Source of the DNA: an uncultured Chitinophagaceae bacterium
GTDB lineage: Bacteria > Bacteroidota > Bacteroidia > Chitinophagales > Chitinophagaceae
Direction of reading: 5' to 3'
Assembly: GCA_903884185.1 (NCBI GenBank)
Contig: CAISDV010000021.1
Coordinates: forward strand, 1 to 46,943
DNA: 46,943 bases
Numbering within the stretch: the first letter of the stretch is position 1; each line of letters begins with the position of its first letter. The translations under genes were made by a program, and so were the position numbers. The notes beneath the pieces were generated by a model. It was not told the origin of the DNA, ran no database searches, and saw only the letters and a program-made list of their open reading frames with translations. This document shows positions 3,924 to 46,943 of this stretch, piece after piece.

Positions 3924-4796
3924 TCAACCCAAATAAACACGCAGGTGTTTACAGCGGCTGGTGATGCGTAATTTATTAATGGCCTTGTCTTTTATCTGGC
4001 GCACCCTTTCACGGGTAAGGTTAAAGCGTTCGCCAATATCTTCGAGGCTGAGGGCATTTTCCATGCCAATGCCAAAGAAATAGCAGAGTACTGCTTTCTG
4101 ACGGTCTGTGAGTGCCAGTAAACTTCTTTCAATTTCTGTCCGAAGTGATTCATGATGCACAAGGCGCTCATCCGTTTTTTCTGCATTGGGGTTTTCCATC
4201 AGGTCTATCAAACTATTTTCTTCGCCATCGATCAGGGGAGAATCCAAACTGATATGCCGGGTTCCAACATTCATGGCAGCCGTGATCTCTTCCACTTCCA
4301 TATCAAGAATGGTGGCCAGTTCCTGTGCACTTGGTTCACGTTCAAATTCCCGTTCCAACTGCTGGTATGCACGGCTGATGCGGCTGGTGAGTCCAACTTT
4401 GTTCAGCGGCAGGCGTACAATACGGCTCTGTTCGGCCAAAGCCTGTAAAATGCTCTGGCGTATCCACCACACGGCATAAGAAATAAATTTAAAGCCTCTT
4501 GTTTCATCAAAACGAAGAGCGGCTTTAATCAATCCAAGATTGCCTTCATTGATCAGGTCGGGAAGCGTTAATCCCTGGTTCTGGTATTGCTTGGCAACAG
4601 AAACAACAAAACGTAAATTGGATTTCACCAAACGATCAAGCGCAAGCTGGTCGCCATGTTTGATGCGCATAGCAAGTTTTACTTCTTCTTCGGGAGTGAT
4701 CAGATCAACTTTACCGATCTCCTGCAAATATTTTTCTAAACTCTGGCTTTCGCGGTTGGTGATAGATTTAGATATCTTGAGCTGACGCATACTCAT
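3924..4796 (-). CDS. rpoD: Primary sigma factor, sigma-70 family
   Basis: This 290-residue protein directs RNA polymerase to housekeeping promoters. It has region 1.2 ([23 protein letters not shown]), region 2 ([31 protein letters not shown], then the DNA-melting [15 protein letters not shown]), region 3, and the region 4 helix-turn-helix [24 protein letters not shown]. It lacks region 1.1 and the non-conserved insert, as is usual for Bacteroidota primary sigma factors. The start may be the ATG at 4796 or the one at 4790 ([11 protein letters not shown]), which is the more typical beginning. Promoter boxes in this window follow the Bacteroidota pattern expected from this factor. Confidence 0.95.
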
Positions 4797-4943
4797 ATAT
4801 GCAGGGTTTTGGTTAGATCGGGGGTAAAAGGGGTTCGTTTCTAAAAAACCAGGATTCGCGTCTTCAGCTACACCATAGCAATTTATGAAAGTTCAATCAT
4901 ACATTCCAAAAAAAACTGGGATTGCCTGAAAATGCTGATTTTA

Positions 4944-4990
4944 TCCGCCCAGGCGGACGAAACACAGGTTTGCGCAGGCGTAAAAACGCC
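4944..4990. repeat. Paired small hairpins upstream of the START-like gene
   Basis: TCCGCC (4944-4949) pairs with GGCGGA (4952-4957), and GGCGT (4977-4981) pairs with ACGCC (4986-4990) followed by TTTTCT. They lie in the 275-base gap between the divergent sigma and START-like genes. The second one looks like a weak plus-strand terminator. The first resembles a dispersed GC-rich palindrome. Function is unknown. Confidence 0.35.
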
Positions 4991-5071
4991 TTTTCTAAAA
5001 AAACATTTGGATGCTATGGATTATTTGATATTATTGCAGCACTACGCATGTCGTTAGATAAAGAGTTTGTA

Positions 5072-45943: not shown

Positions 45944-46808
45944 ATGCTCGTAAAAACCTTTGGGAGTGCGGTTCATGGCGTGGAAGCCATTCAGATCACA
46001 ATAGAAGTAAACATCAGTGGCAGCGACCTGAAATATTATATTGTTGGGCTGCCCGATAATGCCGTGAAAGAAAGTATGCAGCGCATCGAAAGTTCTATCA
46101 AGACAAATGAGTATTCTATGCCACGCACTAAAATTGTTGTGAATATGGCGCCGGCAGACATTAAAAAAAAGTGGTTCCGCTTTCGATCTGCCCATAGCTC
46201 TCGGCATATTGGGCGCTTCAGAACAATTGGGTGACGCCGACAGGCTGAAGGATTATGTGATGATGGGTGAGCTTGGGCTGGATGGGAGCATACAACCTAT
46301 TCGCGGCGCCTTACCCATCGCTATCCAGGCCAGGCGTGAACGTTTCAAAGGATTGATCGTTCCCGAAGTCAATGCAAGAGAAGCCGGAATGGTAAATAAT
46401 TTATTGGTGTATGGCGTGAAGCATTTGAATGATGTGGTAGAATTTTTTAAAGATGAGAATTCATTGCAGCCATTACAGGTAAATACCCGCGAAGAATTTT
46501 TAGGTAATCAATATGAATTTGAATTTGATTTTAGCGATGTAAAAGGGCAGGAAAATATTAAACGTGCGCTTGAGATCGCAGCAGCAGGCGGGCACAATGC
46601 TATTTTAATAGGTCCTCCCGGCGCCGGTAAAACCATGCTGGCAAAGCGTTTGCCAACAATACTTCCACCGTTGAGTTTACAGGAAGCATTGGAAACAACC
46701 AAGATACATAGTGTGGCAGGTAAGCTTCCGGAGAATGCTTCTTTGATTTCAAAACGGCCATTCCGTTCCCCGCATCATACTATTTCAGATGTACTAATAT
46801 TAAAGTAA
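45944..46808 (+). pseudogene. comM: comM/yifB Mg-chelatase-like gene, frameshifted and cut off
   Basis: The product is the YifB/ComM family ATPase; ComM is a helicase that promotes branch migration during natural transformation. The first frame (45944 to 46234) gives MLVKTFGSAVHGVEAIQITIEVNISGSDLKYYIVGLPDNAVKESMQRI and PRTKIVVNMAPADI, then goes off frame at the A8 run (46163-46170). The next frame (overlapping from about 46171) continues with SAFDLPIALGILGASEQLGD, the ATPase Walker A IGPPGAGKTMLAKRLP and FRSPHHTISDV. After that it turns into LILK and stops. The rest, with Walker B and the C-terminal domain, is missing. Confidence 0.9.
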
Positions 46809-46943
46809 AAGTCTTACATTTATAGAAAGATATATCTATGAAAGTAGGCATTTACGCAAGAGTATCCACCTTAAAACAAGCAGAAAAAGGTATCTCAATT
46901 GACGACCAAATTAGGAGGGGGATTGACTTTTGTAATAAAAATA
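46791..46943 (+). mobile_element. Left end of a serine-recombinase element integrated in comM (continues past the window)
   Basis: The conserved comM sequence ends at about 46790. The following DNA is more AT-rich and carries the start of a serine recombinase gene at 46838 reading inward. This is the usual layout of an integrated element, with the attachment junction and the integrase at one end. The other end and the cargo are not in this window, so its size and class are unknown. Confidence 0.72.
46838..46943 (+). CDS. Serine recombinase (resolvase/invertase family), N-terminal part
   Basis: The first 35 codons are in the window and the gene continues past its end. MKVGIYARVSTLKQ carries the catalytic serine (S10), and EKGISIDDQIRRG is the next conserved segment, as in resolvases and large serine integrases. 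The YARVST-x-x-Q-x-x-x-G-x-S-x-x-x-Q pattern favours a large serine integrase over a small resolvase, but the missing part is needed to be sure. A TACATTTA box at 46815-46822 may be its promoter. Its start lies 29 bases after the truncated comM stop. Confidence 0.85.
   Translation, partial: MKVGIYARVSTLKQAEKGISIDDQIRRGIDFCNKN

Follow-up and report, generated by a model that had tools for sequence, protein, structure and literature searches.

A mobile island has almost certainly inserted itself into comM of an uncultured Chitinophagaceae bacterium, its own large serine recombinase (LSR) having joined an attP site of the element to an attB site in comM at the dinucleotide GA. The window, i.e., the whole stretch of 46,943 nucleotides that was analysed (contig C21 of the assembly), ends inside this island, and the other half of comM lies with the opposite junction on contig C12 of the same genome. 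The two junctions share their core, the element sides next to it form a palindrome, and the same insertion recurs in other genera together with recombinases of one family.

The two halves of comM

comM starts at 45944 on the plus strand, and its 5′ part (45944..46787) encodes the ChlI domain and Walker A as far as the codon HHTIS (PF13541 was matched across two frames, PF01078 with its positions 1-90). The gene breaks at 46788-46789, inside the Asp codon of HHTIS-D, whose first two bases, GA (46788..46789, plus strand), are the crossover dinucleotide. The first-pass annotation had read comM through ...FRSPHHTISDV into LILK and a stop, as is indeed the case (the ORF ends at 46808), and had called the frame intact; this holds for the stretch leading into the junction but not upstream, where a run of eight A (46163..46170, plus strand), about 620 bases before the insertion, shifts the frame, comM being read in an ORF at 45944-46234 and then in a different frame from about 46161 to HHTISD. 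A single frame is found at this position in the seven relatives printed, and the shift may be genuine, having arisen in a gene that was already broken, or may stem from an error of assembly. The serine-recombinase ORF begins 29 bases past the stop, at 46838, where it had been annotated, and is still open at the end of the window, which coincides with that of C21; its first 35 codons (46838..46942, plus strand) are visible, and the enzyme is presumably of the large type. In relatives whose comM is uninterrupted, the gene continues through the junction position.

The missing half of comM was recovered as the best match within the own genome at C12:29816-30184 on the minus strand, where it covers PF01078 positions 83-205. 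Besides this and positions 1-90 at the window end, PF01078 gave one further, weak match in the genome (2.1e-4), and because of its weakness no intact second comM is recognised there. The annotation had proposed looking for the 3′ part of comM beyond an element end and for a second attachment half-site; both are present on C12, the half-site with a core (C12:30171-30172, minus strand) shared with the window junction, and together they support its reading of an insertion. The order on C12 is the C-terminus of a methyltransferase, a BglII-like endonuclease facing it, ...CTTTTACTTTAACACTATAAGT-GATGTGGCATTGG..., and comM from VALVGGG on with its C-terminal part. The methyltransferase piece matches PF00145 and PADLOC MTase_II, and the endonuclease matches PF09195 (28.9 bits, cut-off 26) and has no match in PADLOC. 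We take the ComM ATPase to be cut between Walker A, in the window, and Walker B, on C12, a separation that would inactivate the ATPase and probably abolish ComM function. Elsewhere in the genome, genes of the ComEC and DprA families have kept open frames (703 and 393 aa), so a transformation pathway may otherwise be present.

Neither contig reaches further than about 1.1 kb into the element, whose middle is absent from the assembly, and any size given to the island would be an estimate. Searches of the own genome with PF00239, an LSR alignment and PF00145 found nothing beyond the known stubs except for a methyltransferase piece on contig C172. This piece was considered as part of the element and rejected: its frame is closed by a stop after 88 aa, and it seems to come from a different locus that has decayed, the start of C172 (L114 142-982) carrying a truncated C5-methyltransferase with a small ORF behind it, apparently the remains of a restriction-modification locus. 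As the own genome holds no other LSR piece, it is from the junctions that we infer C21 and C12 to be the two ends of one element. Downstream of comM on C12 (L005 about 330-1165), an ORF was seen by eye among copies of a CTCTTGGAGGGTTTAAAACCCTCCAAGAG-type palindrome; it had no Pfam match, and by its motif we presume a resemblance to REP-associated transposases.

The attachment site and the crossover

The inverted repeat of attL, TTAAAGTAAAAG, is mirrored by CTTTTACTTTAA of the C12 end. The element half of attL, i.e., one attP arm, occupies 46790..46811 on the plus strand, and the two sides of the attP are mirror images at 16 of 20 positions, with the GA of the Asp codon as their centre, compared with a mean of 6.3 at 12 shifted centres. 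When the C12 arm was compared with 46,918 positions of the window, only 46790, the base after GA, gave 16/20, and none of 20,000 shuffles reached this complementarity. The arm match, unique in the window, thus ties contigs C21 and C12 together. Five bases (GATGT) are common to both ends of the own pair, which taken alone would be compatible with a 5-bp target duplication.

Both junctions were read in 19 elements (G394, the same as G088, is left out of these pairs, its 5′ half ending at residue 222, before the junction), and the core dinucleotide was identical on the left and the right in all of them (GA in 16, AA in 3). The left-hand search pattern demanded [G/A]A after HHT(I/V)S and the right side was unconditioned, so that only the agreement with the right side counts as evidence for the core. 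No other offset was common to both sides in all 19, the highest values being 18 (offset -9) and 17 (offset +3), and seven elements (G265, G350, G195, G399, G401, G403 and G404) share just two contiguous bases. The attP arms had a mean complementarity of 13.1/20, against 8.8 when combined with the arms of other elements and 6.3 at shifted centres; those of G401 (9) and G407 (8) are no more complementary than mismatched pairs.

In the mechanism that we propose, the LSR, presumably full-length and active in the complete island, would join the palindromic attP of a circular element with an attB formed by the comM codons around HHTIS-D-VALVGGG. Strand exchange would occur at the GA of the Asp codon and would give rise to attL at 46788 of the window and to attR on C12, and the cargo beside attR would comprise at least a C5-methyltransferase and a BglII-like endonuclease, forming a type II restriction-modification pair.

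The recombinase clade and its target

The 35 visible residues of the own recombinase include IYARVST; they gave no Pfam match but were found by a profile of the comM-linked LSRs (E 1.1e-5). The nearest LSR compared with this stub is that of a Mucilaginibacter (L057; 77% over 26 aa), which lies at the same comM site, and 11 of the 15 BLAST matches listed are members of the 22-LSR clade described below. The annotation had named a full-length recombinase with a zinc ribbon among the features that would support its reading, and the catalytic, Recombinase and zinc-ribbon domains (PF00239, PF07508 and PF13408) are above the cut-off in all five comM-linked relatives scanned, whereas the own enzyme, with its 35 visible residues, is cut before the last two.

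A search of 394 genomes with the stub found one relative besides the own genome, the LSR of G088 (545 aa, from another genus), which abuts the 3′ half of comM. Used as a query in turn, this LSR had matches in 11 of the 394 genomes of the family. Five of the eight places above 100 bits abut comM at the same codon (G088, G265:C14, G350:C192, G195:C28 and G240) and three lie away from it (G350:C129, G265:C15 and G326:C12). The two comM halves stand on one contig around the element in G240 (~10.5 kb), G265 (~8.3 kb), G350 (~5.5 kb) and G195 (~36 kb). When the DNA of the element end was searched against 294 genomes, the matches outside the own genome were four short ones, in the comM part, and a single weak one. 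Among viral contigs, a degenerate junction pattern had no matches, and the first viral scan returned four distant loci, none with comM. The phage and plasmid collections contributed 529 and 233 LSR records, all below 60% identity, with 25 and 15, respectively, listed at 23-27%; no Bacteroidota phage was among the matches listed from either collection.

An alignment-based genome scan starting from five comM LSRs yielded 39 relatives, 18 in Bacteroidota and 21 in other phyla. It used two short peptide patterns from LSRs that had been chosen for their position at comM, and because of this preselection its list is neither complete nor unbiased. comM is broken near residue 281 at all 18 Bacteroidota loci; four of these are the query genomes, and so the agreement among the others is 14 of 14, three of which are Chryseobacterium with a nearly identical LSR and hence close kin. 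No comM was found on the stretches examined at the 21 loci of other phyla or at 19 viral loci. The genera include Mucilaginibacter, Eudoraea, Flavobacterium, Cochleicola, Tamlana, Aquimarina, Gaetbulibacter and Dokdonia. All 15 carriers searched (of the 18) contain sequence from the comM parts before and after the break; in 11 of them the two are on one contig, 7.2 to 32.8 kb apart, and in G394 the 5′ piece is on a separate contig. Element sizes overall range from 5.5 to 36 kb, and integration at HHTIS-[D/N] of comM was found for the LSR clade of this first comM site.

The halves themselves are mostly well preserved: the 5′ half is in one frame without a stop over its full length in 17 of 20 carriers and the 3′ half in 18 of 20. 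The exceptions are the own 5′ half (frameshift), that of G394 (stopping at residue 222), both halves of G401 (cut by contig ends) and the 3′ half of G265 (split at MNP by another LSR, distinct from the first). In G401, a Flavobacterium MAG, an intact comM was also observed on another contig (L116, G401:C227:47061-48590) besides the split one (L064), which may be a second copy or may reflect mixed strains or contamination. A second site in comM was observed as well, where LSRs outside the main clade interrupt the gene after LIASMNP and have the same following letters, TGARGTTGCGTTG (L044 2976-4463 in G265 and L046 about 9260 in G354); in G265 a single comM has been hit at both sites.

In a tree of 43 LSRs (the own stub being too short to include, G088 included, the root a midpoint for drawing only), the 19 comM-linked LSRs all fall into one clade of 22, with a support of 100/100, and each of them, located near the element end, is long (555-687 aa between stops). 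The clade spans at least Chitinophagaceae, Sphingobacteriaceae, Flavobacteriaceae and Weeksellaceae. Its other three members are a viral LSR (L094), identical to that of the G195 prophage and with no comM on the stretch examined, and the long-branched L048 and L031, found in genomes whose comM is already occupied. Since these three were not seen at comM, the tree requires four changes of the comM label, and so comM targeting would be old in the clade but not absolute. A truncated sibling LSR in G326:C12 (L047 about 4680-5055) lies beside what by eye is a different coding gene, with GATG...TTAAAGTAAG at the same spacing as in the comM elements; from its position, the clade can change its target.

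Cargo, alternative readings and known systems

The cargo was scanned in 13 elements (part of the ORFs, mostly the larger ones), and a restriction-modification or other named defence family was found in eight of them, a count with which no enrichment is claimed. The own element has the C5-methyltransferase fragment and the BglII-like endonuclease at its C12 end. G240 carries a HindV-like endonuclease with a C5-methyltransferase, an OLD-like protein and ShosA, G265 an Eco57I-type methyltransferase with a PADLOC REase_II, L057 a C5-methyltransferase with REase_II, and L066 ShosA and RmrA; G350 has a CfrBI-like endonuclease (no methyltransferase was identified with it), L058 a methyltransferase only and L064 a type IIG system. 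A weak AbiH match was found in L063. UvrD-type helicases in L060 and L072 and a ResIII/DEAD-type helicase at the cut-off in L070 are generic and were left out of the defence count, and L062 had no defence family among the proteins scanned. The 33-kb element of Cochleicola has PHROGs matches to phage-type replication, methyltransferase and tyrosine-integrase families. In G195, a terminase large subunit was found by PHROGs among the three proteins scanned, with long phage-like ORFs following it (by eye), and this element looks like a prophage.

Several further genes were observed in the islands. Two comM islands carry the DprA-like ShosA, in each case next to an ORF that by eye is HAD-like (L040:11677-14108 and L066:16573-18772), i.e., a DprA-like protein is carried on an element that splits comM, and ShosA of G240 is also near a phosphoribosyltransferase-like ORF that is below the Pfam cut-off. 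At least 12 of the 19 islands with ORFs listed have, in addition to the LSR, a small serine resolvase (about 200 aa), confirmed by PF00239 in two (L040:6828-7424 and L045:10944-11594) and by eye only in L018, L044, L057, L058, L061-L064, L070 and L072. No Tn7-type transposase genes were recognised by eye in the listed ORFs of the related islands.

The shared GATGT raised the reading that a Tn7-like (AbaR-type) transposon entered comM with a 5-bp duplication and that the serine recombinase is a mere resolvase inside it, for which the known AbaR islands in comM of Acinetobacter and the small serine resolvases inside related islands, two of them confirmed, also speak. However, the centre of symmetry of the own arms is GA, not the middle base of GATGT, and 16/20 is reached in the GA register alone; seven of the 19 elements have a contiguous overlap of just two bases, and a long LSR near the element end is the rule in the 19 comM-linked relatives. 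The pattern of a 5-bp target duplication flanked by terminal inverted repeats was not found, and this reading, now very improbable, was rejected on the palindrome register and the relatives. Even less credible is an explanation by which comM, decayed to a pseudogene as the frameshift at the A8 run in its 5′ half might indicate, was broken by an unrelated rearrangement or misassembly and the recombinase is there by chance. The early ends of both junction contigs inside the element would fit it, but in 18 other carriers for which both ends were read the junction falls in this same codon, isolates, Chryseobacterium and Gaetbulibacter among them, have both halves on one contig, and the arms match reciprocally.

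Under integration by the element's own LSR, comM might still be switched and not lost, if the element excises under some condition and restores the gene. The open 5′ and 3′ halves and the presence of both junctions in 19 elements are consistent with such reversibility, but open halves may only mean a recent insertion, and the own comM is frameshifted, so that excision would not restore an intact frame here; on the whole we consider a reversible insertion rather unlikely. Equally tentative, and offered as speculation more than expectation, is the idea of an old Bacteroidota LSR lineage, made up of both islands and temperate phages, that specialised on switching comM off; the split of this branch-migration helicase would lower recombination with foreign DNA and protect the element from being cured by transformation, with the restriction-modification cargo attacking incoming DNA.

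The prophage A118 of Listeria lies in comK and its excision is reversible. It has in common with the islands described here a serine integrase with an attB inside a competence gene, and it differs from them in that the gene is comK, not comM, and in that its excision is known to be reversible, which for the present islands is only a possibility. Targeting of magnesium chelatase genes (comM/yifB) accounts for 12.4% of predicted site-specific integrases in the main text of Durrant et al. 2022 (PMC10083194), which also gives competence genes as enriched among LSR targets and sites in or close to anti-phage genes as not enriched, a statement on target sites that is distinct from cargo. The elements of that study are, as its main text presents them, alike in that diverse LSRs integrate into the magnesium chelatase gene, whereas one Bacteroidota clade with one mapped crossover codon and its cargo is described here; 'Bacteroid' is not mentioned in that main text. 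The annotation had considered a serine integrase in comM of a Bacteroidota genome a distinct case. The kind as such is already published, and among the entries listed in the literature searches there was no Bacteroidota example or description; the Bacteroidota clade, the fixed codon and the matched att pairs look new and the general kind is known. Integration into comM by serine recombinases is thereby extended to several Bacteroidota families, and the nineteen matched attL/attR pairs, by which the crossover is pinned to two bases within a single codon, might be used in building genetic tools for Bacteroidota.

Mobile elements in comM have been described in several Gammaproteobacteria, namely in Acinetobacter (AbaR), Aggregatibacter, Mannheimia, Francisella and Pseudomonas, and in A. 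baumannii the Tn7-like AbaR islands make up over half of the comM insertions, with CBASS and Zorya in some, as far as the parts of PMC4774983 and PMC11472951 considered here go. According to the same parts, these elements resemble the present ones in that comM is disrupted and some insertions carry defence genes; the main text of PMC4774983, which includes the comM integrase CF65_00446, does not mention 'serine'. That a comM insertion protects mobile elements from curing by transformation is an idea put forward in that text (PMC4774983), and the Bacteroidota islands could serve as a test bed for the view that mobile elements disable transformation genes to avoid curing. The serine recombinase sr1WO of prophage WO, integrated in the magnesium chelatase gene of Wolbachia, is similar, in the portion of PMC9203015 considered, both in the enzyme type and in the gene portions found on both sides of the element; prophage WO is a Wolbachia phage, whereas the elements described here are mostly Bacteroidota islands, several of them with restriction-modification genes, and include one recognised prophage (G195).
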